In this document: piece by piece, positions 3,768 to 57,942 of the stretch
Numbering within the stretch: the first letter of the stretch is position 1
Layout: each line of letters begins with the position of its first letter
Assembly (NCBI RefSeq): GCF_008274585.1
Contig: NZ_VTRT01000002.1
Location: forward strand, 1-64,000
Direction of reading: 5' to 3'
Origin: Pedobacter sp. BS3
Lineage (GTDB): Bacteria; Bacteroidota; Bacteroidia; Sphingobacteriales; Sphingobacteriaceae
Length of the DNA: 64,000 nucleotides
The notes under the pieces: model-generated
Seen by the model: only the letters and a program-made list of their open reading frames with translations
The model's database searches: none
What the model was told of the DNA's origin: nothing
Made by a program: the position numbers and the translations under genes

Positions 3768-4886
3768 TTATTTGCTTCTTGCTCCTTTAAATAAAATGTT
3801 GTTAAAGGCTTTGAACAAATAAGTAAGATCCGTTTTTAAAGGATGTTTGATGTAAGATTCGATATACCGCATTTCAGAGTCAACCAGTTCCGGGAAACTG
3901 TCGGGCAGATCGGCATAAAAAGGAGGAATAAGCCCGGGCTTGCTTAAGCACCTTTTTTCCTGTGCTTCTTTAGGGTACATGCTAAATTTATGGTTGCTCA
4001 GGGGGCGAACGCCCACAATTTTTATATCGCCTTTTATCAGGTTGATGAGCATGGGTAGCTCATCAATCCAGAATTTCCTGCAAATTCTGCCGGCAGTGGT
4101 TACCCTGAAGTCCTCATTGGCCTTATCACCATTTGCAGTGCCATATTTTTCGTAAACATACTGCTGCAGATATTCTGAATAAGCATACATTGTTCTCAGC
4201 TTATATACATTAAATACTTGGCCTCCCTTGCCAACCCGTTTAAGCCGGATAAGCAATCCGTAGTGCGGATCTTTGCCCAATACCGGTTCCTTTATCTTAC
4301 GGGCAACAAAGTAAAAGCGGTTGTTTATGTATCTTTCGGCCAAAACCTCAAACCCACAATAATAAAGGCGTCCCAGTATCTCTGTTTTAGAGTATATCTG
4401 CTTTTTTCCCCTGGTAATGAAGTTATAGAAGCTTTTGGTAAGCCTGAACATGGGAAATATCCTGTGAAACAGCGTATCAAACAGGTAATGTACCCGGTTT
4501 AGCGGCCATGGCATGGTATTTAATATCCGCTCTTTACGACTGGCAAATACTTCGGCGCTGTTAACGTATAATCCCCCGGTGGCTATTTTAGCATTTACCG
4601 AGCGGAAAAAGTCATTAAGCGCCGGGATATCATTGAGGTTTCTAAGGTTAATGATGTGGCGATACCTGTTCCTGTTCAGCCAGTCGATATTAAAGGGCGA
4701 GCTTGTGGCAGTAAGAAATACCGAGTCGTCCAGATCTATGTGTTCTGCAATAAAATTATACGTACCGTCTCCGGCCAATTCTGTAATAAAATCCCTGACC
4801 GGGGAGATACGCCAGGGATAATCTATTGATTTTAATGAAGTTAATTCATCGGGAAATGAATGTCCCGGCAATTCAGCTAATTGCAT
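3768..4886 (-). CDS. bacterial sugar transferase with a methyltransferase-like N-terminal domain
   Basis: The C-terminal part (about residues 205-372) matches the bacterial sugar transferase family, which moves a sugar-1-phosphate from a nucleotide sugar to undecaprenyl phosphate and starts the repeat unit. Key features are YKLRTM (228-233), the catalytic Asp-Glu pair in WIDELPML (D275, E276) and GVRPLS (292-297). The usual hydrophobic re-entrant helix in front of the catalytic core is not visible. Instead residues 1-200 resemble the later half of a class I methyltransferase: an FFRSV...GGLYV segment near 94-108 and a GRLYYCGFEV...YFVARK segment near 172-197, with no glycine-rich SAM motif. 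This is a fusion, or a degraded methyltransferase fold reused as a scaffold. It is the only candidate initiating transferase in the cluster. Confidence 0.8.
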   Translation of the reverse strand: MQLAELPGHSFPDELTSLKSIDYPWRISPVRDFITELAGDGTYNFIAEHIDLDDSVFLTATSSPFNIDWLNRNRYRHIINLRNLNDIPALNDFFRSVNAKIATGGLYVNSAEVFASRKERILNTMPWPLNRVHYLFDTLFHRIFPMFRLTKSFYNFITRGKKQIYSKTEILGRLYYCGFEVLAERYINNRFYFVARKIKEPVLGKDPHYGLLIRLKRVGKGGQVFNVYKLRTMYAYSEYLQQYVYEKYGTANGDKANEDFRVTTAGRICRKFWIDELPMLINLIKGDIKIVGVRPLSNHKFSMYPKEAQEKRCLSKPGLIPPFYADLPDSFPELVDSEMRYIESYIKHPLKTDLTYLFKAFNNILFKGARSK

Positions 4887-4981: not shown

Positions 4982-5350
4982 TTAGCGGGTATGTTTCATG
5001 GTAAGCCTGTAAAACACCGCCCCTGTTAACATACCGGCCACATTAGCCCTGATATCATTTACATTAAAGGTGCGGTAGGGAATACCAAGCTGGATATATT
5101 CTGCCAGTACGGTAATTACCAAACCTATTGCAAGCCAATAACCTGCTTTCAGCCTGTTGTTCTTAGCTGGTTGTAAAAACATCCACGGTACAAATAATGA
5201 ACCATGAAAAATATGATCAAGGCGTATGTGAAAAATAAATACATTATTCATTGCCTGCTTAAGGGGCGTAACGGGAACACTTAACGCAAGAATTACCAAT
5301 ACCAGATAAGCGGTTATGAACAGCCCTATCTGTTTAGAGCAACGCCCCAT
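4982..5350 (-). CDS. VanZ-like small membrane protein
   Basis: The 122-residue product has about three to four hydrophobic segments: residues 8-28, one around 45-62 containing HIFHGSLFVPWMF, one near 70-90 and a C-terminal one. The LDHIFHG and E-x-x-Q-L-x-x-P...D-x-x-x-N-x-x-G pattern is typical of VanZ-family proteins, including many stand-alone Bacteroidota members. The function of such stand-alone VanZ proteins is not settled. It shares one base with the end of the upstream DUF354 gene, so the two are translationally coupled. Its position in the polysaccharide operon suggests an envelope role, which is inference. Confidence 0.75.
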   Translation of the reverse strand: MGRCSKQIGLFITAYLVLVILALSVPVTPLKQAMNNVFIFHIRLDHIFHGSLFVPWMFLQPAKNNRLKAGYWLAIGLVITVLAEYIQLGIPYRTFNVNDIRANVAGMLTGAVFYRLTMKHTR

Positions 5351-10209: not shown

Positions 10210-10833
10210 CTATTTTAACGCTCTGATAACAACACACGGATTGCCTGCTGCAATTACATTTGCGGGGATGCTTTTAGTCACCACACTGCCGGCGCCTATC
10301 ACCGAGTTTTTCCCGATGCTGACATTTTTTAAGATAATTGAACCATAACCAATGAACACATTATCGCCTATATAAACTTCCCCGGGCAAAGGATCTGCGG
10401 TATGCCTTAAATGCGGGTCTATGTTGTGCCAGTTGGTATCTGTGATCAGTGAATTGGCTCCAACCATTACGTTTGATCCAATAATAATTTTATTTGCAGC
10501 GCCTATGGCAGTACCACTCAGACCTGAATTATCGCCAATTTCGATACGGGAATTTTTTCTGAGCGTTGCAATCAAGCAGGGCTTATTTAAGCCAATGAGG
10601 TTTGAGGTTTTATCCGACCGGAATTCTACATTTTTACCTATGGTTATTGATGAATAAGGCGCCCGGCAGAAATAGGTATATCCAAAACAGACAAGCCCAC
10701 TGCCATATCCTATCTTTTTAAATCTTAAATTCAGCTTAACGTACGCCGTATAAAATAGCTGGTTATACTTTAACCTCAACCGCCTGATCTTTCCGCATAC
10801 ACGGCCGTTCCGGTCATTAGTTATGGTGCTCAT
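10210..10833 (-). CDS. left-handed beta-helix O-acyltransferase
   Basis: The 207-residue protein has the hexapeptide-repeat pattern of left-handed beta-helix acyltransferases from about residue 85 onward: GDNSGLSGTAIGA, GSNVMVGANSLI, GDNVFIGYGSIILKNVSIGKNSVIGAGSVV and a C-terminal AAGNPCVVIR. The TDTNWH segment with its His near residue 135 corresponds to the catalytic His region of the maltose/galactoside acetyltransferase group. It probably acetylates (or acylates) a sugar of the repeat unit. Its start overlaps the polymerase gene by 17 bp, a sign of translational coupling. Confidence 0.86.
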   Translation of the reverse strand: MSTITNDRNGRVCGKIRRLRLKYNQLFYTAYVKLNLRFKKIGYGSGLVCFGYTYFCRAPYSSITIGKNVEFRSDKTSNLIGLNKPCLIATLRKNSRIEIGDNSGLSGTAIGAANKIIIGSNVMVGANSLITDTNWHNIDPHLRHTADPLPGEVYIGDNVFIGYGSIILKNVSIGKNSVIGAGSVVTKSIPANVIAAGNPCVVIRALK

Positions 10834-12106
10834 TGTTTTGATATGAGTAAGCCGGCATTAATTGTCTGATGCTCTGTTGCTTACCGGCCTTCAGGTAAAT
10901 ACCGGCCAGTGCCAGAACCCACATGATAATGTTAGATTCAAATGGATTTGAAAAAACGGGGAACAGGAGGATAAGCACCAGTACGGCCTCTTCTAAAACC
11001 ATACCTTTTTTTGAATAAGATACAAAGGAATACAGGCCATAAACTAAAAATGCAACGCCTAAAATCCCAAATTTCCCTAAAACAGATGCCAGGCCGTTCG
11101 GGTTAGACCATTTATCGCTAAGCCCCAGATCTGAATAATCATTATCCCAGCCGTTGCCCACTACCGGGCTTTTTTCAAGCCGTTTCATTACGATCAGCAA
11201 ACCGGCAAAACGCCCTATTGAAGACCCTGTGGTATACCCGCCATTAATGTTTTCATCTATGGTTGTATAATCGGTATTGTTGTTTAAGTAAGAATTGATC
11301 TTACTGCCCATAAACGGCAGATTATAGGTTTCTATAGCTGCCAGCACAAAAACTGACAGAGACACGAAGAGAACTACCGGTTGCTTTCTGTTTTTCTTTA
11401 ACAGGATCAGGCAGGCAAACAATAATAACGCTAAATAAGTGGTTGTAGAAATTGTTGTCAGGGCGTACAGCGATAGTACTACGATCTTTCTGTTGATCTG
11501 CTTATCGTTTCTAACATACTCGTAAATTATCAGGAAAAGCAGGATACCTCCAAAGGCGCCGGGCTCCCACATAAAACCGCTATTTCTAAACAGCGTAAAA
11601 GGGTTGAGATTAAAAAAGAACACATAAATTCCGCCCGATCTTGCCTGTTCTGCAAATGAAAAATTGAATGGGGCGAGCAGGCTTTTCAAAAGGCCAGGGT
11701 CTAATAACTGAACAATATAAAAAGGAACAGTGATGAGCACCAGGCCATAAACAACCTGCATTAAAGATTCCATAAAATAGGCTTTATACTCCCTGATCAT
11801 GTAATACACAACCGTAAGAATAAGAATGAATTTTACAGAGCCTAACATAAATACGCCGGTAATTGTATACTGAATGCAGATCACCGCCAGGCAGAGAATA
11901 AGAAACCCTATACCAAAGCGATCTTTTATCCAATAGCTATTGTTTCTTATCAACAGAATCACGCTGAATGCAATAAATAGTAGCTGAGCAGCTAACGTTT
12001 GCGAAAAATTGCTGCAAGCCGCTATCAAAAGAACAATATAAAGGCTGTAAACCGTAAACAGCCAATTGGTTTTATAGCAGGCATGTGTATACTGTATGCC
12101 GTTCAT
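10817..12106 (-). CDS. wzy: Wzy-type polysaccharide polymerase
   Basis: The 429-residue protein is an integral membrane protein with about ten to twelve hydrophobic segments and a long periplasmic loop around residues 265-330 that holds SSIGRFAG and a VVGNGW-like segment, as in O-antigen ligase/polymerase family members. Sequence conservation is low, as usual for Wzy. It would join repeat units at the reducing end in the periplasm. Gene order (flippase, acetyltransferase, polymerase) supports the call. It overlaps the upstream acetyltransferase by 4 bp (ATGA) and the downstream one by 17 bp. Confidence 0.82.
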   Translation of the reverse strand: MNGIQYTHACYKTNWLFTVYSLYIVLLIAACSNFSQTLAAQLLFIAFSVILLIRNNSYWIKDRFGIGFLILCLAVICIQYTITGVFMLGSVKFILILTVVYYMIREYKAYFMESLMQVVYGLVLITVPFYIVQLLDPGLLKSLLAPFNFSFAEQARSGGIYVFFFNLNPFTLFRNSGFMWEPGAFGGILLFLIIYEYVRNDKQINRKIVVLSLYALTTISTTTYLALLLFACLILLKKNRKQPVVLFVSLSVFVLAAIETYNLPFMGSKINSYLNNNTDYTTIDENINGGYTTGSSIGRFAGLLIVMKRLEKSPVVGNGWDNDYSDLGLSDKWSNPNGLASVLGKFGILGVAFLVYGLYSFVSYSKKGMVLEEAVLVLILLFPVFSNPFESNIIMWVLALAGIYLKAGKQQSIRQLMPAYSYQNNEHHN

Positions 12107-12798
12107 GTACCTTGTTCTACGTGATGAATAAATGCCTCTGCATCATGAAACAGCAAATGGTTTTTCCGGAGCCATTCCTCATCTTTTTCCCACCACTTAC
12201 TTTCGTGTATAATTTTCCGGGTTCTTTCATCAAATCTGTATCTGATGATCTTAGCCGGCACTCCTCCTACAATGGCATACGGCTCAACATTCTTTGTTAC
12301 CACTGCGCCGGCTGTTATTACGGCACCGTCGCCAATGTTTACTCCCCCGGGTATCAGTACATTTTCACCGATCCATACATCGTTTCCAATAATAACCTGC
12401 CTGTACTCTTCAAAACAGGTGTTTTTGGCAAACGTATCAAACGGTTTATTATTGGCATAAAAAGCCGGATGACTGGAAACAAAGTGTACAGGATGATTCC
12501 CCAATTCTATTTTAACCCCGGGCCCGATACTGCAAAATTTACCAATGGTGGTATTTTTAATGCTAACATGAGCATTAATGTATGAGTAGTCGCCTATCTG
12601 TGAATTGATCAGGCTGCTATCACTCCCAATGTACACGTTAAAACCAATTGCGGTGTGAGCAATTTGCGTCCGTAAACCTGTTTTCAGCTTCTTTTGCTGA
12701 TATTTTTTCAATAATTTATATCGTTTGTATTCCTGGTATACTACCGAAGATGAACACATTCTTTTCAGAGCATCAAGCATTCCAGATACCTTTCGCAT
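12103..12798 (-). CDS. CatB-related O-acetyltransferase
   Basis: A 231-residue hexapeptide-repeat acetyltransferase of the CatB/xenobiotic type. The beta-helix runs from about residue 50 (GFNVYIGSDSSLINSQIGDYSYI) to NDVWIGENVLIPGGVNIGDGAVITAGAVVTKNVEPYAIVGGVPAKIIRYRF, which ends with the family's conserved GVPAK-IRYRF segment. The catalytic His is probably in ELGNHPVHFVSSHP near residue 95. It likely modifies one sugar of the polymer. The start lies inside the 3' end of the flippase gene (26-bp overlap) and the end overlaps the polymerase start. Confidence 0.88.
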   Translation of the reverse strand: MRKVSGMLDALKRMCSSSVVYQEYKRYKLLKKYQQKKLKTGLRTQIAHTAIGFNVYIGSDSSLINSQIGDYSYINAHVSIKNTTIGKFCSIGPGVKIELGNHPVHFVSSHPAFYANNKPFDTFAKNTCFEEYRQVIIGNDVWIGENVLIPGGVNIGDGAVITAGAVVTKNVEPYAIVGGVPAKIIRYRFDERTRKIIHESKWWEKDEEWLRKNHLLFHDAEAFIHHVEQGT

Positions 12799-14134
12799 TA
12801 TTATTGATGATCTTCCGGGTTTGAATAAAAAAAACTATCCCGATACCGATAAACGTAATGCTGTTTGCTAAGCTGATACCTGCCAACCCAATGGTTTTAC
12901 CCAACAAAAAGGCTAAGGGAATATTAACTAAAGCGCTTGCTACAACCAGGTAAAGCTGAAGCTTTATCTTCCCGATACCATTAAGCAGGGATACGTGAAT
13001 GGTTTGCCAGGTATAGGTTATTACGTATAGTACCATAGCTAATGATAAGCTGAACGGAATAGAAACACTATCGCCGATCCACAGGTGAAAGACGAAAGGC
13101 GATACAACCAAAAGCAATACCGATGAAAAAATAATACCTATCCAAAACAGCTGTAGTTTTTGCAGGCTTCGTTGTATCCAAACAATGTCGTTGCGGGCAT
13201 AGGCATCTGTATAAGCGCTCCACAACGGGGTACTTACAATTGTAAATATCATTAGTATCACAGAAAAAAGCTTATACGCCACATTAAAGGTTGTAACTTC
13301 TTTAGCTCCGAACACTTGTGTAACAATAATGTTATCTGTCTGGAAAAGAACCAGGGCCCCGATCTGGATAATAAAAAATTTCCCGCCCAGATTCAATAAA
13401 TCTTTTGAGAATTTAAAACGAACATAGCTGAATGAAGGGGCGTATCTTTTATATTCATGGCTGTAAAACCAGCTACTACTTGCCAGCAATACCATAATGG
13501 GCATTGCACCCAAACTCAGCCCCAGTGCAATTAAATTGCCACGGGTAGTTTTGGTGAGGATAAAAATGACCAATAATGACAAAACATTGCCCAGCAATTT
13601 AAAGAATGCAGCCTTTGCAGGCTGCTGATCGGCTGTCAGGATAATGGTTATCAGTTGCAGCACGAATTGGATACAAAAGCATACAAATACTACCAGGGCA
13701 AGTAATTGCAGATCTGCATTCAGGTTGCCGGGAGTATTCAATATCCGCGACCAGTTAAGGTAATGGTTCAGAACAAAGAATATCGCAATAGCACCTGTGC
13801 TTATCAATGCTAATATTGCATACGTGGTACTAACGTAGATCCTGGCCAGCTTATATTTCCCTTTTGCTACTGATTCTGCAAACTTATTTCTTAAGCCATG
13901 TCCGAAACCGATATCGAAAAAGTTAAACCAGGCTATAATTGAGCTCAATGTTAGCCAGATGCCGTACTGAACTACGTTAACATAATGAATGGTTAACGGC
14001 ACTACCAGCAGACTAACGCCAATACTTGCTACTTTTGTAATAAAAGAGGAGACAATGTTTTTTTTTGCATTAATGCTCCGGGTATCTCCCTTTGTAAAAA
14101 AGGCATTGATTATAGTAACGGCTTTGCTTATCAT
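12773..14134 (-). CDS. wzx: Wzx-type lipid-linked oligosaccharide flippase
   Basis: The 453-residue protein has about twelve to fourteen predicted membrane segments and the N-terminal pattern of the polysaccharide/MOP transporter group: a conserved stretch near residues 25-80 with SLLVVPLTIHY...YGIWLTLSSIIAWFNFFDIGFGHGLRN. It would move the undecaprenyl-linked repeat unit to the periplasmic side for Wzy. Its gene overlaps the acetyltransferase gene by 26 bp and follows the dehydrogenase gene after 32 bp. Confidence 0.88.
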   Translation of the reverse strand: MISKAVTIINAFFTKGDTRSINAKKNIVSSFITKVASIGVSLLVVPLTIHYVNVVQYGIWLTLSSIIAWFNFFDIGFGHGLRNKFAESVAKGKYKLARIYVSTTYAILALISTGAIAIFFVLNHYLNWSRILNTPGNLNADLQLLALVVFVCFCIQFVLQLITIILTADQQPAKAAFFKLLGNVLSLLVIFILTKTTRGNLIALGLSLGAMPIMVLLASSSWFYSHEYKRYAPSFSYVRFKFSKDLLNLGGKFFIIQIGALVLFQTDNIIVTQVFGAKEVTTFNVAYKLFSVILMIFTIVSTPLWSAYTDAYARNDIVWIQRSLQKLQLFWIGIIFSSVLLLVVSPFVFHLWIGDSVSIPFSLSLAMVLYVITYTWQTIHVSLLNGIGKIKLQLYLVVASALVNIPLAFLLGKTIGLAGISLANSITFIGIGIVFFIQTRKIINNNAKGIWNA

Positions 14135-14166
14135 TTTAACGGCAGATCTAAAACAGCGGGAATTAA

Positions 14167-15528
14167 TTATAGCCTTCCGCTAACCAGATCACGGTTAAAG
14201 AACGCCTTGGTATCAAAAATTACTGTTTTCTCGTTTTCTTTCAGCTCATGAAGGTTTAATGCGTGAAATTCATTGTGCGCTACAGCAAGAATAATGGCGC
14301 TGTATTTTTTATTAAGCACAGGCGTCAATGTTATTCCGTACTCATCTTTTACTTCTTCTGCATCTGCATAAGGGTCATACACATCTACCTGCAACCCAAA
14401 CTGGCAAAGCTCCTGGTAAATATCAACCACTTTTGAGTTGCGGATATCCGGGCAGTTCTCTTTAAATGATACGCCAAGAACCAAAGCATTTGCGCCTTTA
14501 ATAGCCAGCTGGTTATCTATCATTAATTTAATGACCTTATTGGCTACGAACTGCCCCATAAAATCATTTACCCGCCGCCCGGACAGGATAACCTGCGGAT
14601 GATAGCCCAACGATTCGGCCTTGTGCGCCAGATAATATGGATCAACCCCGATACAATGCCCGCCAACCAAACCGGGTGCATACTTTAAGAAGTTCCATTT
14701 ACTGCCCGCAGCATCCAATACATCGTTGGTATCGATACCCATTTTCTCAAAAATCAGGGCCAGCTCATTTACAAAAGAGATATTCACATCACGCTGGGCG
14801 TTTTCTATAGCCTTTGAGGCTTCCGCCACTTTCATGCTGGGCGCTTTGTGCGTACCGGCTTCAATAATCTGGTTATACAGCTTATCTACAATGGCCGCTA
14901 TTTCGGCTGTTGACCCCGAGGTTACCTTTTTTATTTTAGTTAGTGTATTCACCTTATCACCGGGATTGATACGCTCAGGCGAATATCCGCAATAAAAATC
15001 CTGGTTAAACTTTAACCCGCTATAAGCCTCAAGTACAGGTACGCAATCTTCTTCTGTACAACCGGGATATACCGTACTTTCATAAATTACAATGTCGCCG
15101 CTCTTTAATACTTTTCCTACGGTCTCGCTTGCTTTTAACAGCGGCGTCAGATCAGGCTTTTTAAAACGGTCTATGGGCGTGGGAACAGTAATAATATACG
15201 TATTAGCGTACCTTAAATCATCTGCACTATCTGAAAACCATAATCCCTTTTCAATACCATCTGCTTTCAATATTTCTGCCGTTGTACCAGGATGCCCCCA
15301 GGTATCTTCTATTTCTGCTACTGCCAGCTCCTGCTTTTTGAGCGCCAGCAATTCTTTTAATTGTTTGGTATCCGCTTCCAGCGTACGATCCTCTCCCCGG
15401 TTCAGCTCTGCAATACGCTCTTTATTGATATCAAAGCCAATAACCGGATAATGCTTACTAAATTCCATGGCAAGCGGCAAACCTACATAGCCGAGTCCGA
15501 TAACAGCAATACGATGATTGTGATTCAT
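14167..15528 (-). CDS. nucleotide sugar dehydrogenase (UDP-HexNAc 6-dehydrogenase, TviB/WbpO-like)
   Basis: The 453-residue enzyme oxidises C6 of a UDP-sugar twice to a uronic acid using NAD. Features seen: N-terminal Rossmann motif VIGLGYVGLPLA, TPIDRFKKPDLTPL, YESTVYPGCTEEDC, the central lysine/asparagine segment, and the catalytic Cys in GLVGGHCIGVDPYYLAH (about residue 290). The GGHCIGVDPYYL form and the YPGCTEE segment are typical of the WbpA/WbpO/TviB branch acting on UDP-N-acetylhexosamines rather than UDP-glucose. UDP-GalNAc is a likely substrate, but UDP-GlcNAc or UDP-ManNAc cannot be excluded. It implies an acidic aminosugar in the polymer. Confidence 0.9.
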   Translation of the reverse strand: MNHNHRIAVIGLGYVGLPLAMEFSKHYPVIGFDINKERIAELNRGEDRTLEADTKQLKELLALKKQELAVAEIEDTWGHPGTTAEILKADGIEKGLWFSDSADDLRYANTYIITVPTPIDRFKKPDLTPLLKASETVGKVLKSGDIVIYESTVYPGCTEEDCVPVLEAYSGLKFNQDFYCGYSPERINPGDKVNTLTKIKKVTSGSTAEIAAIVDKLYNQIIEAGTHKAPSMKVAEASKAIENAQRDVNISFVNELALIFEKMGIDTNDVLDAAGSKWNFLKYAPGLVGGHCIGVDPYYLAHKAESLGYHPQVILSGRRVNDFMGQFVANKVIKLMIDNQLAIKGANALVLGVSFKENCPDIRNSKVVDIYQELCQFGLQVDVYDPYADAEEVKDEYGITLTPVLNKKYSAIILAVAHNEFHALNLHELKENEKTVIFDTKAFFNRDLVSGRL

Positions 15529-15656
15529 AATGAATAAGATTTATGTGCGTTGTTTAAATGCTTTTAAAAATTTTAAGATGACTACGGAAGAGCCGGGCAA
15601 CGTGCCGGCTAAGCAATACCGGCCCTGTACCGTAATCAATAAAGTTCAAAACTTTT

Positions 15657-17963
15657 TTATTGGTAATATCCGTAGCCATAGCCGTAACCGTAGCTATAGC
15701 CTCCATAGCCATAACCGTATTTACCGCCTTCTTTAATGGCATTAAACACCAGGTTAAGGTTTTTAAACCGTTTTTCCCTGAACAGGCTATCGGCAAGCTT
15801 AAGCCTATCGCGTGGCGTAAAGTCATGACGAACCAGGAATATTGTTGCATCTGCGTACTGTTCAAGCACTTGCGCATCTGTAACAATACCTACCGGCGGA
15901 GCATCGATAATGATCTGATCAAAACGTTCTCTCAACTGCTCGAACAGCTCACCTAACCGTCCATTAATCAGCAGCTCTACCGGATTAGGCGGAATAGACC
16001 CGCAGGTAATAATATAGTAGTTCTCCTGACCGGGAATTTCCTGTATAACTTCATCCAGCTGAGCCGAACCGATCAGGAAATTGCTTACTCCTTTAACATT
16101 AGCCATTTTCAGGGCCGAATGGAGCTTAGGCTTACGCATATCCAACTCTAAAATGACGGTTTTTTTCCCTATCATGGCTAAGCTGGCACCTAAGTTTAAC
16201 GAAACAAAAGATTTGCCTTCACCACTCATACTTGATGTAAAAAGCAGGCTCTGGATACCTTTTCCCGGTGCAAGAAATGAAAGATTAGTGCGCAACGCCC
16301 TGATCTGCTCGGCAAGGATGCTCCGGCTTGCCCCGTTTATAACTATTGCATCCTCATGCTCTGAGTAGGCAATATCGGCAAGTACGGGGATACGGGTAAA
16401 CCGTTCTATATCTTTTCTGCTTTTAATTTTATTGTTTAACAGGTCAATAATATAAATAATGCCTACCGGAAGAAACAGTCCCAATAAGCCAAATGCTAAA
16501 TAAATATTCCGCTTAACCGGCTTAAAAGGCTGGCTGCTGCTCCTGGCCTCGTCAATAGTACGGCTGTCTGAAACGGCCGATGCATACGAAAGCGCCGTTT
16601 CTTCGCGTTTCTGTAACAGGAATACATAGATATCATTTTTAATTGCCTGTTGCCTGGTTATATCTACTAAAGTTCGCTCTTTGCCGGGAATGGTTTTTAT
16701 CAGGCTTTCTTTCAGGGCGTTCTGCTTTTCCAGCTTTCGCCGGGTTATTGCAAGGCTTTCCTGTAATGTTTTGATATTATCCCTGATATTCTCTTTGATC
16801 GTTATGATCTGCTTGTCGAGCGAAATGATAATAGGGTTATCAGCTTTCATCAGTTTTATATTCTGCTCCCGCTGCCCCTGCAACTCTGATAAACGGCCAA
16901 TGAGCGCCAGTAAAGTCGGATCGCTTACACCCAGGGTTGCCGGCGTTGTGCCTTCATTTTTTTTACTGCTTACATATTGACGAATATTTTCCAGTATGCC
17001 TTCCTGTATTTTTACCTGGTTAAGCTGCAGATCATTTTGCTGCACACTTTCAAGAAACAGCTTAGATTCGGCACTGATATCGGTAATACCTTCGCGTGAT
17101 TTATAACTTTCTACTTCCTTCTCCACTTCTTTCAGATCTGAAGATACCAGCTTAAGCCGCTTATCAATAAAAGCCAGTGTATTATATGCCACGCGGTTTT
17201 TATCTTCAAGCCCGGCCGTATTATACTCTTCTATCAGTTTATTCAGCAGGTCTTTTCCTTTTTGCGGAACGGTACTCTCAAAACTCATAAGCAATACGGA
17301 CGACATCTTGCTGCTGGGTTCTACCTTTAGTAAGCTCATGTAGTTCTCGGTTACATCCGAAACGGGAAACAGCCGGACCTTAACTTCATTAACTTCGGGA
17401 TTATAACCGGTTAGCTCAACACGCAATGTGCCGTATAACGTATTTATTTTCCGGTTAACAGGAATAATCTCCCCGTTTAATGCAACCTGGCTTTTATCCC
17501 TGATTTCAATGGTGAAGGGCTCCTTGTACGATAAGGCTCCCGGTTTAAATAAGGTTAACCGTACGGGACAGGTTTCACCGTATAGTTCCGTATCCCTGAA
17601 GTTACCGGCAGTGAAATAGCTCACCTGTAAATTGAGACTGCTTACTGCTTTCTTCATTAAAGTGTACGATTTTAACACTTCGATCTCGTTATCTACAACC
17701 TTGGTTCCTGAAAAAATATCAAGCTGTTTCAGCATATCACCCTGGTCGAGGCCTTTACTATCGTCCTTTATCAGGATACTTCCCTGTATATCGTATAAGG
17801 GTGGCTGGGTTTTCAGATAAAAAAAAGCCAGCACTACTGCTAAAACTAAAGACAGGGCAAACCATTTCCAATAAGCCAGGTATTTATAAAATAAACTGGT
17901 CAGGTTAAATTCGGTATCCGGCACCGGCTCAAATACAAACGGATCCTTCGGTATATTATTCAT
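15657..17963 (-). CDS. wzc: Wzc-type polysaccharide co-polymerase and tyrosine autokinase
   Basis: The 768-residue inner-membrane protein has the full Wzc layout: a membrane segment near residues 32-50, a Wzz-type chain-length domain, a long coiled-coil periplasmic part (about 250-450), a second membrane segment near 490-510, and a BY-kinase domain. The kinase shows Walker A TSSMSGEGKSF (about residue 575), Walker A' LELDMRKPKL and Walker B IIIDAPPVG. The C-terminus is a Tyr-Gly-rich cluster with about eight Tyr in the last 20 residues, the site of autophosphorylation. Its phosphorylation cycle controls chain length and export with the outer-membrane pore encoded upstream. It starts 33 nt after wza. 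Confidence 0.96.
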   Translation of the reverse strand: MNNIPKDPFVFEPVPDTEFNLTSLFYKYLAYWKWFALSLVLAVVLAFFYLKTQPPLYDIQGSILIKDDSKGLDQGDMLKQLDIFSGTKVVDNEIEVLKSYTLMKKAVSSLNLQVSYFTAGNFRDTELYGETCPVRLTLFKPGALSYKEPFTIEIRDKSQVALNGEIIPVNRKINTLYGTLRVELTGYNPEVNEVKVRLFPVSDVTENYMSLLKVEPSSKMSSVLLMSFESTVPQKGKDLLNKLIEEYNTAGLEDKNRVAYNTLAFIDKRLKLVSSDLKEVEKEVESYKSREGITDISAESKLFLESVQQNDLQLNQVKIQEGILENIRQYVSSKKNEGTTPATLGVSDPTLLALIGRLSELQGQREQNIKLMKADNPIIISLDKQIITIKENIRDNIKTLQESLAITRRKLEKQNALKESLIKTIPGKERTLVDITRQQAIKNDIYVFLLQKREETALSYASAVSDSRTIDEARSSSQPFKPVKRNIYLAFGLLGLFLPVGIIYIIDLLNNKIKSRKDIERFTRIPVLADIAYSEHEDAIVINGASRSILAEQIRALRTNLSFLAPGKGIQSLLFTSSMSGEGKSFVSLNLGASLAMIGKKTVILELDMRKPKLHSALKMANVKGVSNFLIGSAQLDEVIQEIPGQENYYIITCGSIPPNPVELLINGRLGELFEQLRERFDQIIIDAPPVGIVTDAQVLEQYADATIFLVRHDFTPRDRLKLADSLFREKRFKNLNLVFNAIKEGGKYGYGYGGYSYGYGYGYGYYQ

Positions 17964-17996
17964 TAAAAGCTATGCGATAATTGTGAGAGAAACTTC

Positions 17997-18824
17997 CTAT
18001 TTGGCCAGGTTAACCAGAATTACGGTTAGTAAACTTAGTCCGCTCAAAATCATAGGCGCCAGTTGCACACTGCGATCTCTTGCTGTTGCCTTACTTTTAG
18101 TAGGTTCAACATATATCACATCGTTGGTTTTGAGATAGTAACAGGGCGACCTGAACACATCGCGTTTAGTTAGATCAATGCGGTTAAACTGCTTTTTACC
18201 GGCCGTTTCCCTGATAAGCAGGATATTATCCCGTTTGCCGTATATGGTCAGATCGCCAGCCATCGCTATAGCTTCGGGCAGCGTTACCTGCTCATTAGGG
18301 ATAGTGTAAACGGCAGGCCTGGAAACTTCTCCCAATACGGATATCTTAAAGTTTAAAATGCGTACGTTCACGGTTGGCTGCTCCAGGTATTTGTTAAGCT
18401 GCGCTGTAATCCTACCGGTAACCTCTGTAGTAGTAAAGCCTGCAACCTTCAATTTTCCGATCAATGGTATGGTAATGTCACCGGCCTCATTAACCAGGTA
18501 CCCGGTTGCGGGGCCGGGCGAGTTACTTTGAACCGTTTGCTGAGAGGTTATATTGGTGCTAAATGGCAAATAAGGATTAAACATGGCGCTGGCTTCAGGA
18601 CTTATACTGCTTACCAGTATAGAAAGTATATCTCCCGGCTGTATTGTTGCAATATATTTTTCGCACGAATCTATACTTTGTTTGTCTTTTCCGGGTTCAC
18701 CGGCCTGAAAATAAGTTACTTTTTTCTGGCTTACGCAAGATGCCAAAGCAAAACCCACACATACAAGCCCAACTATGTTAAGGTATAGATACCTCTTTCT
18801 TTTACTCATTATAATTCTATTCAA
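17997..18824 (-). CDS. wza: Wza-type polysaccharide export lipoprotein
   Basis: The 275-residue protein starts with a basic N-terminus and a hydrophobic stretch ending in LASC (Cys about residue 30), a lipoprotein signal. Then comes the export domain (YIATIQPGDILSILVSSISPEA) and SLBB-type segments (LVNEAGDITIPLIGKLKVAGFT; FKISVLGEVSRPAVYTIP). The C-terminus is hydrophobic. It would form the outer-membrane export channel that pairs with Wzc. It overlaps the upxY end by 8 bp if the first Met is used; starting at the sixth codon (18809) gives a cleaner signal peptide and no overlap, so the start is uncertain. Confidence 0.93.
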   Translation of the reverse strand: MNRIIMSKRKRYLYLNIVGLVCVGFALASCVSQKKVTYFQAGEPGKDKQSIDSCEKYIATIQPGDILSILVSSISPEASAMFNPYLPFSTNITSQQTVQSNSPGPATGYLVNEAGDITIPLIGKLKVAGFTTTEVTGRITAQLNKYLEQPTVNVRILNFKISVLGEVSRPAVYTIPNEQVTLPEAIAMAGDLTIYGKRDNILLIRETAGKKQFNRIDLTKRDVFRSPCYYLKTNDVIYVEPTKSKATARDRSVQLAPMILSGLSLLTVILVNLAK

Positions 18825-41375: not shown

Positions 41376-43265
41376 TTATATCAAACTTACGCTTCTGCTT
41401 ACAAAAGCGGTAAGCTCCGGTCCTTCCAGCATACCTTGAGCCAATAAAGCCAGATCAACGGCCTGCTTAGCCAATGTGCCTTGCTCCTCTTCATTTTCGG
41501 TTTGCAGAATACGGCTGATCAGCTTATGATTACCGTTTACAGCTACTTTATAGTTATCGGGCATTGAACCGTAAAAGCCCATACCTCCGCCCATTTTGGC
41601 CATATCTTTCATCCGGCGCATAAACTCATCCATAGTTACGGTTACGGGCAATTCATCCGGATTAAGGGCAACTACTTCAACATGCATACCCGGTTTGTTG
41701 ATGGCTTTTTCAAACACTTCCTTCACTTTTGCAGATTGCTCTTCGGTTAGCACATGTTCGTTATTTTCATCTTTCTCAATGAGCTTATCGGCCACAGCCG
41801 AGTCCACACGTTTGAGCGAAGTTTTTTCCAGCTTCTGCTCCAGGTGACTGATAAAATGCCCGTCGATAGGCGAATCCATCAGCAATACATCGTAATGTTT
41901 TTTAACGGCCGATTGTATAAAGCTATCCTGCTTAGCCGGGTCGGTAGTATACAGGTAAACCACTGTATCGTTCTTATCGGTTTGCACCGCCTTTACTTTC
42001 TCCCGATATTCATCCAGTGTATAATACTCATTCTGAGTGTTTGATAACAACGCGAAATCTTTAGCCTTTTCGTAGAACTTATCTTCGCTCACCATGCCGT
42101 ATTTAACAAACAAGCCAATATCTTTCCATTTCTCCTCATAAGCCTTGCGATCTTTATTAAACAACTCCTGCAACTTATCGGCAACCTTTTTGGTGATATA
42201 GGTGTTGATTTTCTTCACATTGCTATCGGCCTGTAAAAAGCTCCGTGAAACGTTCAGCGGAATATCCGGCGAATCAATTACACCGTGCAGCAACATCAAA
42301 AATTCAGGAACAATATCTTTTACCTCATCGGTAATGAATACCTGCCGGGAGAACAGCTTGATCTTATTACGCTGCAAATCGAAATCATTTTTGATTTTCG
42401 GGAAATACAGCACACCGGTCAGGTTGAACGGATAATCTACATTGAGATGGATCCAGAAAAGCGGGTCTTCCGAGAACGGGTAAAGCTCTTTGTAAAATGC
42501 CAGGTAATCCTCGTCCTTTAAATCGGCAGGCGCCTTTGTCCAGATAGGATTAACGGTGTTGATGATATTATCAACTTCAACCGACTTATATTTCGGCTTG
42601 CCGTCCTTATCCTCGCCATCCGGTGCCTGCTCTGTTTTGGTGCCAAACTTAATGGGCACAGGCAGAAATTTGGCGTACTTATCCAGTATCTCCTGTAATT
42701 TGTATTTACTCAGAAACTCTTCCGAATCCTTGTTAATGTAAAGAATAACATCGGTTCCACGTGTTTTGCGTTTACCGGCAGAAATTTCAAACTCGGTGCT
42801 GCCATCGCATACCCAACGGGCGGGCTCTGCTCCATCCTGGTAAGAAAGCGTCTGGATTTCCACCTTATCGGCTACCATAAAGGCCGAGTAAAATCCCAGG
42901 CCAAACTTACCGATGATCTCATTGGCATCTTTAGCATCTTTGAACTTCTCTACAAACTCGGTAGCGCCGGAGAATGCCACCTGGTTGATATATTTCTTGA
43001 TCTCGTCGGCTGTCATTCCCAGACCGTTATCCGAAACCGTTATGGTCTTCTTTTTCTCATCAAAAGCGACTTCCACCAGCGGATTGCCCAGTTCGCCCTG
43101 GTATTGTCCCAACGCTGCCAGTCGCTTAATTTTCTGTACCGCGTCTACCGCGTTAGATACCAGCTCTCTTAAAAATATCTCGTTGTCTGAGTAGAGGAAT
43201 TTTTTAATAATCGGGAAAATGTTCTCCGTGTGTATTGAAATGGTTCCTTTTTCTTTTACGCTCAT
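41376..43265 (-). CDS. htpG: molecular chaperone HtpG (Hsp90)
   Basis: The 629-residue Hsp90 homologue has the GHKL ATPase N-terminal domain with ELVSNAVDAVQK (ATP Glu/Asn), VSDNGLGMTADEI, and GKFGLGFYSAFMVADKV, a middle domain from about residue 230, and a C-terminal dimerisation domain. It is complete. The charged linker of eukaryotic Hsp90 is absent. No CIRCE element is seen upstream. It precedes the probable terminator and the tRNA-His gene on the same strand. Confidence 0.97.
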   Translation of the reverse strand: MSVKEKGTISIHTENIFPIIKKFLYSDNEIFLRELVSNAVDAVQKIKRLAALGQYQGELGNPLVEVAFDEKKKTITVSDNGLGMTADEIKKYINQVAFSGATEFVEKFKDAKDANEIIGKFGLGFYSAFMVADKVEIQTLSYQDGAEPARWVCDGSTEFEISAGKRKTRGTDVILYINKDSEEFLSKYKLQEILDKYAKFLPVPIKFGTKTEQAPDGEDKDGKPKYKSVEVDNIINTVNPIWTKAPADLKDEDYLAFYKELYPFSEDPLFWIHLNVDYPFNLTGVLYFPKIKNDFDLQRNKIKLFSRQVFITDEVKDIVPEFLMLLHGVIDSPDIPLNVSRSFLQADSNVKKINTYITKKVADKLQELFNKDRKAYEEKWKDIGLFVKYGMVSEDKFYEKAKDFALLSNTQNEYYTLDEYREKVKAVQTDKNDTVVYLYTTDPAKQDSFIQSAVKKHYDVLLMDSPIDGHFISHLEQKLEKTSLKRVDSAVADKLIEKDENNEHVLTEEQSAKVKEVFEKAINKPGMHVEVVALNPDELPVTVTMDEFMRRMKDMAKMGGGMGFYGSMPDNYKVAVNGNHKLISRILQTENEEEQGTLAKQAVDLALLAQGMLEGPELTAFVSRSVSLI

Positions 43266-56052: not shown

Positions 56053-57915
56053 TCACAACCTCACCTTATACACATTATCCCGTTTATTCACATCGGGAAC
56101 ATAGGTGCTGCCCAACACAACCTTATCTACTTTTTTATCCGAGGAGAACTCAATCGTAACCTGTTTATTGCCAGCTTTCCAGCAGGCTATGCTTCTATGA
56201 ATTTTCTGCACCGTCTGGTCTGAAAAATATACGGTAACATCTATGGGCACGGGCTTCCCGCCTACCGATTCTATAATCACCGTATATTGACTGCCTGCTT
56301 TTTTCACGTTGCGTATGGCCAGATCCGGGAAACCGTTATCAAAAAACCAGCGCTTCCAGAACCAGTTCATATTTTGCCCGGCGCCGGTATTCATACAGTT
56401 AAAAAAGTCGTAAGGCATGGGGTGTTTGCCATTCCACTGCCGTATATAATAATGCAGGGCTTTAGTAAAGAGCTCATCGCCCAGCATATCTTTTACATAC
56501 AAATATCCGAAAGCCGGCTTGGGATAAGAGTTGAGGTAAAACGCCGGGTCTTTTTGCTGGGTTGTCAGCGTCATAATGGGTAAATCACGTTCGCTTCCGG
56601 CATTTTTCTCGTAGGGTTTAACTCCATAATCATCTACAATAGCCGGATCAATACAGGGCGATATCAGCCATTCGCCAATGGTGGCCCATCCTTCGTCCAT
56701 CCAGCCGTACTTGGTTTCGTTAACACCCATATAAAACGGGAACATCGTATGGAAGATCTCGTGATCTGTAAGCGTTATGGTCGCTTCCTTATCGGCCAGC
56801 GGATTATCGTTCACCATCATGGGATATTCCATCTGGTCAAGGCCGTCAAATATGGTTTCATGCGGATATGGGAACGGCCATTTCGGGAAGGTATAGCTCA
56901 TTACTTCCACCGTTTTACGGGCGTAGTTCACCACTTCGTTATAATCATTATGCCGGGGATTGAATACGACGTCTACCCGGGTCCGCCGGCCACTTTGTTT
57001 ATCCACCACCAGGCTACCGGCCTTCCATACGTAATGGTTGCTTATCGCAAAAGCAAAATCGGTAACATTAGAAGCGGTAAATTTCCAGGGGGATGCCCCG
57101 GTAGTTACAGCAGATTGCTGAAGATCGGCTTCTGTAATAACATTCACCACGCTATCGCTCTGCCCTGCCTGTTGCACACGTTTGTAAATTCCGGGCTGCA
57201 ATACATCGGCAGCGTTGTCCAGATCTCCGGTAGCCCAAACCGCGTAATCTTTAGGAACTGAAATTTCCACGTTAAACGAGCAAAAATCATTATAAAATTC
57301 GGCCGAGCCCAGATAAGGGTTTTCGTTCCAGCCGTCAATATCATCGTAAACGGCTATCCGCGGAAAGAAATAAGCGATAAAAAACGCCCCGGTATCAACC
57401 TGCCCGGTACGTACATGCGAGCCTTTATTCAGCGTATAAGACCACGCGATCTGAAAATGCGTGGTTTGTCTGGACAATATCTCTGCCGGCACAATCATAT
57501 TTGTACCGTCAATGTTCAGCCGGGATACATCCAATGCCTTATTATTCATTACAAACTGCTGAATGGCAACGCCGTCTGTAAAATCCGACGCGGATACTTT
57601 TGTTTCGCGTGGCGAATCTTTTTTGTAAAGATTGGGATAGAGCTTAAACCATACCTCATGCAAGGTATCGGGACTATTATTGATATAACGAATAGCCATC
57701 GTTCCTTTAAGTAACCGTGTTGATGGGTCAAAGTCTACCTTGATGGTATAATCTGCGGTATTTTGCCAGTAATTCTTTCCCGGACTACCATCCGGACTGC
57801 GGGTTTGTTGATTATACGCCGCTGCAATATTTAAGGGAACCGGTAATTTTACCTGCGCATAAACAAGCTGAGAAAGGAATAACGCTACCAGCGCTATATA
57901 TTGCCTGAACTGCAT
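56053..57915 (-). CDS. M1 family metallopeptidase
   Basis: About 620 residues with a signal peptide (MQFRQYIALVALFLSQLVYAQ) and an aminopeptidase N-like domain. The zinc site is complete: DHEIFHTMFPFYMGVNETKYGWMDEGWATIGEW with HExxH and the distal Glu. The exopeptidase motif region (MEYPMMVND) lies before it. It probably trims peptides in the periplasm or outside. The start is placed at Met-Gln-Phe-Arg because this gives a normal signal peptide; the longer frame reaches 57942. Confidence 0.92.
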   Translation of the reverse strand: MQFRQYIALVALFLSQLVYAQVKLPVPLNIAAAYNQQTRSPDGSPGKNYWQNTADYTIKVDFDPSTRLLKGTMAIRYINNSPDTLHEVWFKLYPNLYKKDSPRETKVSASDFTDGVAIQQFVMNNKALDVSRLNIDGTNMIVPAEILSRQTTHFQIAWSYTLNKGSHVRTGQVDTGAFFIAYFFPRIAVYDDIDGWNENPYLGSAEFYNDFCSFNVEISVPKDYAVWATGDLDNAADVLQPGIYKRVQQAGQSDSVVNVITEADLQQSAVTTGASPWKFTASNVTDFAFAISNHYVWKAGSLVVDKQSGRRTRVDVVFNPRHNDYNEVVNYARKTVEVMSYTFPKWPFPYPHETIFDGLDQMEYPMMVNDNPLADKEATITLTDHEIFHTMFPFYMGVNETKYGWMDEGWATIGEWLISPCIDPAIVDDYGVKPYEKNAGSERDLPIMTLTTQQKDPAFYLNSYPKPAFGYLYVKDMLGDELFTKALHYYIRQWNGKHPMPYDFFNCMNTGAGQNMNWFWKRWFFDNGFPDLAIRNVKKAGSQYTVIIESVGGKPVPIDVTVYFSDQTVQKIHRSIACWKAGNKQVTIEFSSDKKVDKVVLGSTYVPDVNKRDNVYKVRL

Positions 57916-57942
57916 AACTATGAAATAGGAAAAAGCAGGCAT

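Follow-up and report, generated by a model that had tools for sequence, protein, structure and literature searches.

A family of phosphoglycosyl transferase-like proteins that lack the re-entrant membrane helix and carry a pseudo-methyltransferase domain

The re-entrant membrane helix (RMH) of monotopic phosphoglycosyl transferases (PGTs) is treated, in the accessible parts of PMC10519829 and PMC6133551, as part of the definition of these enzymes and as important for binding of the lipid acceptor. In particular, the available text of PMC10519829 describes the RMH as present in all members of the superfamily, that of PMC12802240 describes a D-x12-P motif within it as strictly conserved, and that of PMC6133551 describes the RMH of PglC as essential for structure and function. 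PglC (PDB 8e37, 8g1n) is a small monotopic PGT, whose residue R88 binds UndP according to the accessible part of PMC10519829 and whose D168 is said, in that of PMC12802240, to stabilise the RMH. The large monotopic PGTs, represented by WbaP (PDB 8t53), carry four transmembrane (TM) helices and a PF13727 DUF in addition to the core, and the available portion of PMC6133551 describes the four N-terminal helices of WbaP as dispensable for activity. Finally, the bifunctional monotopic PGTs, a class that appears in the accessible part of PMC10942596, have an extra domain fused to the core.

The protein described here is encoded in a window of 64,000 nucleotides from Pedobacter sp. BS3 (contig NZ_VTRT01000002.1, positions 1 to 64,000), where a gene on the minus strand (3768..4886), delimited by its open reading frame and a Pfam match, specifies 372 amino acids. 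It shares with PglC the fold of the core, the Asp-Glu dyad and, by spacing, the K59- and R88-like residues; unlike PglC, it has no counterpart of the PglC residues before 38, which include the RMH, and it possesses a PPxYxDxP motif and a fused N-terminal domain. With WbaP it has in common the core and a Wzx/Wzy gene context, and sister forms of its family bear a four-TM bundle in front, whereas the protein itself has neither RMH nor TM bundle and the middle domain of the family is methyltransferase-like instead of a PF13727 DUF. The fusion of an extra domain to the core recalls the bifunctional enzymes of the accessible part of PMC10942596, but here the extra domain is devoid of its catalytic motif and the RMH is missing. 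Similarly, residues ~35-200 have the fold of class I SAM-dependent methyltransferases (PDB 3cc8, 4htf; CMAS, PF02353), from which the family differs in lacking the glycine-rich SAM motif in 102/102 members and, as far as the model of the query indicates, the strands after b1. The family thus lacks the RMH and retains the catalytic features, and it should therefore work like a monotopic PGT while standing outside the definition of that class as written.

Between its two flanking stops the open frame of the query has just 379 codons, so that no helix can be hidden by a mis-called start. Its sole Pfam domain is the bacterial sugar transferase PF02397, which covers residues 211-365 and matches positions 35-178 of the 179 of the profile (E 3.6e-23); the missing first 34 positions are the RMH region of canonical members. 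An AlphaFold2 (AF2) model built from 80 sequences, with a mean pLDDT of 87.8 for the whole protein and a pTM of 0.79, predicts two domains on either side of a short polar linker (residues 198-210, 4257..4295, minus strand), which on the evidence of Pfam, the model, VIA and HMM matches occupies the place of the RMH in canonical enzymes. The initial annotation had claimed that no hydrophobic re-entrant helix is present and had named a predicted structure with a normal one as what would refute it; the AF2 model and its VIA comparisons show none. Indeed, residues 198-211, directly before the core, are coil in the model, and the alignment of the core to PglC begins at PglC residue 38. Searches of PDB sequences with the query matched WbaP and PglC, in the core only.

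The same loss is seen across relatives. Among the ~97 PF02397 genes of 40 genomes of the same class (100 rows sorted by hand, two of which are fragments), 86 begin at profile position 1-2, one is split over two rows, three begin at 8-15 and seven begin at 35, and all seven are members of the query's family, being the query itself or matching it over most of its length. When an HMM built from 30 canonical large PGTs is used instead, 81/81 loci start at positions 311-323, and the hydrophobic RMH lies there at ~284-311. On the Kyte-Doolittle scale, the best 19-residue window of the query reaches 0.91 (residues 279-297), and those in the last 345 residues of the 102 family members have a median of 1.01 and a maximum of 1.71, as compared with a median of 2.64 and a minimum of 1.96 for the RMHs of canonical relatives (18/30 caught by the pattern). 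In 24/29 canonical large PGTs, the D-x12-P motif falls in the stretch of 75 residues that precedes the KxR[ST]M-type motif, while the query has none in the corresponding 75 residues. By letters alone it occurs in 21/102 family members, in stretches such as DNKLYFVARKIKEP, whose counterpart in the model of the query is a strand with the linker and no hydrophobic helix. The loss of the RMH is thus genuine and family-wide. D353 (3828..3830, minus strand), which by its distance from the limits of the VIA ranges is the positional equivalent of PglC D168, is kept in 76/80 of the best 80 of at least 563 relatives.

The catalytic core (residues 208-368, 3783..4265, minus strand), supported by the PF02397 match, is superposed by VIA on PglC 8e37 (residues 208-368 against PglC 38-183, Z 13.9, rmsd 3.1 over 139 residues) and on WbaP 8t53 (residues 206-366, Z 14.1, rmsd 3.0 over 122 residues). 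Both the YKLRTM motif (residues 228-233, Y228 to M233; 4188..4205) and the Asp275-Glu276 pair (4059..4064), which had been called intact at the outset without mention of a strand, are present as stated, and lie on the minus strand. The Asp-Glu dyad is retained in 102/102 family members, three of which read Asp-Glu-Thr-Pro. Among the best 80 of at least 563 relatives, K229, R231, T232 and M233 of YKLRTM are found in 80/80, as are D275, E276, R294, P321, P322, Y324, D326 and P328, and R270 is kept in 79/80. On the basis of VIA ranges and of spacing to the dyad, K229 and R270 correspond to K59 and R88 of PglC. R294, conserved in 80/80 of the same best 80 of at least 563 relatives, lies in a VGVRP motif and may be the equivalent of PglC R111, although the spacing to the dyad is one residue off. 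A counterpart of the UndP-binding Arg145 of PglC, which presumably belongs to a GRN motif, was sought in residues 319-345, where no position is Arg or Lys in at least 90% of the family. In this region the motif after KPG is rebuilt as an invariant PPxYxDxP, which in the query reads PPFYADLP (residues 321-328, 3903..3926, minus strand) and serves as a family signature. The rebuilding would count against an active enzyme, but Gly-Arg-Asn after KPG is likewise present in 0/26 of the canonical large PGTs compared, so its absence does not single the family out.

The N-terminal half of the protein (residues 27-200, 4287..4808, minus strand) is assigned to a pseudo-methyltransferase domain on the evidence of the AF2 model, Foldseek, VIA and weak CMAS profile matches. 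With residues 32-200, Foldseek retrieves class I methyltransferases (best E 3.8e-5), and VIA aligns the domain with 3cc8 (Z 11.3, rmsd 4.1, 137 residues) and 4htf (Z 10.8, rmsd 2.7, 140 residues); the model shows a Rossmann-like fold with a C-terminal hairpin. These matches bear out the methyltransferase likeness proposed by the initial annotation, for which an N-domain unrelated to methyltransferases would have been fatal, but its comparison with the latter half of the fold was too narrow, as a b1-like strand remains. In particular, DSSP of the model gives a strand at 56-59, then only a five-residue helix, then a strand at 77-83; the first of these seems to be b1, after which the glycine loop and the next strands seem to have been lost, and the strand and the site expected for the glycine-rich SAM loop fall at residues 56-68 (4683..4721, minus strand; model and motif I search). 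The suspected loss of the cofactor loop extends to all homologues inspected, the query included, since neither the strict GxGxG form of motif I nor a loose one occurs in any of the 102 family members (0/102 each). In control methyltransferases the loose motif is found in 50/65 (UbiE 16/20, CMAS 14/15, Methyltransf_23 20/30) and the strict one in 37/65 (UbiE 0/20, CMAS 14/15, Methyltransf_23 23/30). Given a methyltransferase fold with motif I absent throughout, SAM binding of the usual kind is not expected of the domain.

As to the source of this domain, the CMAS profile (PF02353) is weakly matched in 12/80 members, again of the best 80 of at least 563 (best E 0.0013), and hhalign gives 16.8% for CMAS and 9.0% for Methyltransf_23, both weak. 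UbiE/MenG enzymes act on prenylated lipids and would be an appealing origin, which is left unsupported by an hhalign probability of 0.3%. The middle domain of canonical large PGTs was likewise unsupported as a source (hhalign 0.5%), and PF13727 is matched neither by the query at E ≤10 nor by the best 80 of at least 563 members at E ≤1. A profile of the N-domain gives 23 matches in 21 of 198 genomes of the phylum at E ≤0.01, and a stand-alone or SAM-competent relative was sought among them; 22/23 coincide with family members, and the exception (G250, E 1.9e-4) covers 45 positions in a 103-residue frame. Against PDB sequences the same profile retrieves nothing significant, the best hit being the SAM methyltransferase 1y8c (E 0.049). 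Residues R142, P145, Y154, G172, R173, L174, G178 and F179 are invariant in the best 80 of at least 563 relatives, and close pairs give dN/dS values of 0.01-0.15 for the N-domain (8/11 pairs) and of 0.02-0.08 for the core (6/11 pairs), the remaining pairs and several of those with values having dS at or near saturation. Both domains are maintained by constraint.

The family was studied through the best 80 of at least 563 confirmed relatives, and a tree was computed for 102 members; L088 was omitted from A2 and L082 and L088 from A3, as their translations contain unknown residues, and L125 and L130, which both have an Asp-Glu-Leu-Pro dyad, failed the motif filter and lie outside the 102 tree rows. 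Three architectures are found in the tree: 40 members, including the query, are free of TM segments, and the other 62 carry TM bundles in front, a single four-helix bundle in 54 and apparently two bundles in eight. The loci of the best 80 of at least 563 relatives were divided into 53 long ones, in which about four TM helices precede these two domains, and 27 short ones, of which L075 was called short from a wrong start and is four-TM in the tree. The fewest architecture changes on the quick tree are eight, and the well-supported branches alone force four (four-TM) or five (TM-less). The two-bundle form is one clade on this tree, and the TM-less members cluster. The four-TM bundle gives 21% with canonical large PGTs in hhalign, over only 69 columns. 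The two-bundle branch (L117-L124) consists of proteins of ~650-680 residues with five to eight hydrophobic segments before the pseudo-methyltransferase domain, apparently two successive TM bundles. Some members depart from these layouts: L126 (3153-4550) and L127 (2900-4285) have ~100 extra N-terminal residues, which in L126 resemble a transposase-type HTH (HTH_Tnp_1, E 3.1e-4, below the curated cut-off) and in L127 matched nothing in the same search. L125 (minus strand, 432-residue frame) is a divergent relative with GRL and the catalytic motifs and a different N-terminal half, and L100 and L130 each contain a pair of neighbouring family copies, the second L130 copy being cut by the contig end.

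A candidate element for membrane docking of the TM-less form is the amphipathic stretch at residues 129-158 (4413..4502, minus strand; model and conservation), which in the AF2 model consists of two helices, 129-146 and 148-158. The initial annotation had put this stretch at 131-160 and suggested it as a possible route of membrane association. In the best 80 of at least 563 members this pair has a mean charge of +3.5 and is 30% aromatic, and R142, P145 and Y154 are invariant in 80/80 of them. Moreover, a reduced member (L128), in which the first half of the methyltransferase domain is largely gone, retains the helix pair and the GRL motif. Both the invariant residues and this retention are compatible with a docking role. 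The hydrophobic moments of the two helices (0.52 and 0.71) are, however, unexceptional, since helix 264-271 reaches 0.82 and other helices are as amphipathic or more, and the mean conservation of the pair is 0.64, as against 0.86 for the next helix and 0.67-0.79 for the core; docking through the pair is therefore put forward here as a hypothesis, in which the anchor candidates left in the TM-less query are residues 129-158 and the C-terminal helices. For L046, a four-TM form modelled with a pLDDT of 86.6, the VIA match to PglC begins as early as PglC residue 19 and draws on the model from residue 111 onwards, so that a portion of TM helix 4 may occupy approximately the place of the second arm of the RMH; the match is judged from the ends of the VIA range and has an rmsd of 4.3 over 150 residues.

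The gene stands in a polysaccharide-type locus. Just upstream on the minus strand is a gene for a small VanZ-like membrane protein (4982..5350; PF04892, E 2.4e-10), and glycosyltransferase-like genes are also found upstream on the same strand, followed by profile matches to Wzy-like (weak, E 0.0011), hexapeptide transferase, Wzx-like, nucleotide-sugar dehydrogenase, Wzc-like and Wza-like genes (10820..18809, minus strand). Downstream, a GDP-mannose dehydratase, a mannose-1-phosphate guanylyltransferase and a GDP-fucose synthase were recognised by eye. The query is the only PGT-like gene found in this Wzx/Wzy-type locus. Elsewhere in the genome there are one further PF02397 gene, whose match is canonical and which lies on the same contig at a distance of ~490 kb, and three PF00953 genes (polytopic type) on other contigs. 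Among the 81 loci, which extend at most 10 kb to each side and are in many cases shortened by contig ends, another canonical PGT-like gene is present in one (L048), and L100 has its second family copy. A canonical PF02397 gene is also present in each of the seven family-bearing genomes of the 40-genome census; another enzyme could thus prime in these genomes, which makes a non-priming role of the family possible.

The missing RMH, the catalytic motifs, the predicted fold, the loss of the SAM motif, the constraint on both domains and the three architectures are computational results, and from them we infer the enzyme activity, its acceptor and the route by which the TM-less form reaches the membrane. 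The explanation that we prefer, with a probability of roughly 0.55, is an active PGT of the PglC/WbaP type without RMH, the TM-less form of which is docked by the helix pair of the pseudo-methyltransferase domain together with the C-terminal helices. According to this mechanism, the RMH would have been lost from such a transferase while activity was kept; the N-terminal methyltransferase fold without SAM motif would stand in for it in the TM-less form, the core being docked on the inner membrane face via the amphipathic helix pair and its own C-terminal helices, and the sister forms would be anchored by one or two TM bundles. The invariant D275, E276, K229, R231 and R294, with the near-invariant R270, argue for activity. 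The position of the gene as the sole PGT-like one among Wza-, Wzc-, Wzx- and Wzy-like genes argues for an initiating role, and the enzyme probably starts the building of a surface sugar polymer. The essential RMH of PglC, as described in the accessible part of PMC6133551, counts against an active enzyme without this element. A stronger and more tentative proposal is that the dead methyltransferase fold took over the job of the RMH, binding the membrane and perhaps the polyprenyl chain, to give a peripheral PGT without any hydrophobic segment.

The absence of the helix could also have another meaning, namely that the protein actively transfers phosphosugars to a soluble or other acceptor that is not polyprenyl phosphate, so that a membrane helix is unneeded. 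This would suit a query with neither RMH nor TM segment, the rebuilding of the stretch after KPG to PPxYxDxP, and the canonical PGT elsewhere in the genome. It agrees poorly with relatives of the same core that bear one or two TM bundles, as expected for a membrane acceptor, with the lack of another PGT-like gene in the Wzx/Wzy-type locus, and with the retention in 79/80 (best 80 of at least 563) of R270, the equivalent by dyad spacing of the R88 that binds UndP in the accessible part of PMC10519829, and we regard it as unlikely. Recruitment of the TM-less form by a partner such as the Wzc/Wza export complex, in place of its own helices, is suggested by gene neighbourhoods: where a row extends 4 kb or more downstream, Wzc or Wza is nearby in 13/23 TM-less and 1/37 four-TM loci (Fisher p 2.5e-6), the former count including the window, whose Wzc lies beyond the 10 kb of the other loci, and being 12/22 without it. 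Yet only four independent pairs fall on well-supported branches, where a sign test is not significant, 10 TM-less loci have no Wzc/Wza nearby, and the association may merely mark the pathway type. The association is therefore suggestive only, and such recruitment is rather unlikely.

A regulatory or scaffold protein without catalysis would account for the loss of an element called essential in the available text of PMC6133551 and for a second domain that has lost its own catalytic motif, but the Asp-Glu dyad in 102/102 members, the invariant core motifs (best 80 of at least 563) and a core dN/dS of 0.02-0.08 (6/11 pairs) make a non-catalytic protein very improbable. The gene can hardly be a decayed fragment of the four-TM form either. 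The smallest well-supported clade of the query (four rows) does include one four-TM member, L078; on the other hand, the TM-less members make up 40/102 and group together in the tree, the frame is intact, and the gap of 95 bases to the upstream VanZ gene is too short for a TM bundle.

A conserved RMH-less branch with an intact active site amounts to a natural experiment on the need for the RMH. Members without TM segments may prove soluble and simpler to purify or crystallise, and the lipid-binding step would then be open to direct tests; if replacement of the RMH by the pseudo-methyltransferase domain proves true, the defining helix would be replaceable, with TM bundles swapped in and out around an RMH-free core. 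In a literature search, no title or opening of an abstract dealt with an RMH-less PGT; the superfamily network study (O'Toole et al. 2021) and Entova et al. 2019 lay outside its coverage, and prior notice of such proteins is possible.

The family is patchily distributed. It was detected in 26/395 genomes of the phylum (E 1e-40 or better), and a near full-length match is present in 0/60 other genomes of the window's own family and in 6/39 genomes from other families of the class. By title, the 80 records kept, the best of at least 563, are mostly from Bacteroidota, the others including a few Ignavibacteria and one Chlorobiota. Such a scattered occurrence suggests that polysaccharide loci have moved horizontally.

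Several genes recur beside the transferase. The TM-less loci in the Wza/Wzc comparison include L035, L037, L039, L070 and L105. The neighbour seen most often belongs to cluster c1 (36 genes in 35 loci, e.g. L033:2164-3813) and encodes a protein of ~550 residues with an apparent signal peptide, which by eye resembles an outer-membrane Wzi-like barrel; one member gave nothing over cut-off in Pfam (Jacalin, E 0.0065, is below it), NCBIfam or PDB. An exosortase-family gene is found near the transferase in L034 (12684-13289) and in eight other loci, with XrtX as the best NCBIfam match, below cut-off, and a literature search on the XrtX exosortase returned no paper. FemAB-like genes recur in 26 loci, and their presence with exosortase genes beside the transferase is an arrangement that we take to be that of PEP-CTERM polysaccharide loci. 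In the window itself, two open reading frames, at 41379-43265 and 56056-57942, are of equal length (629 residues).
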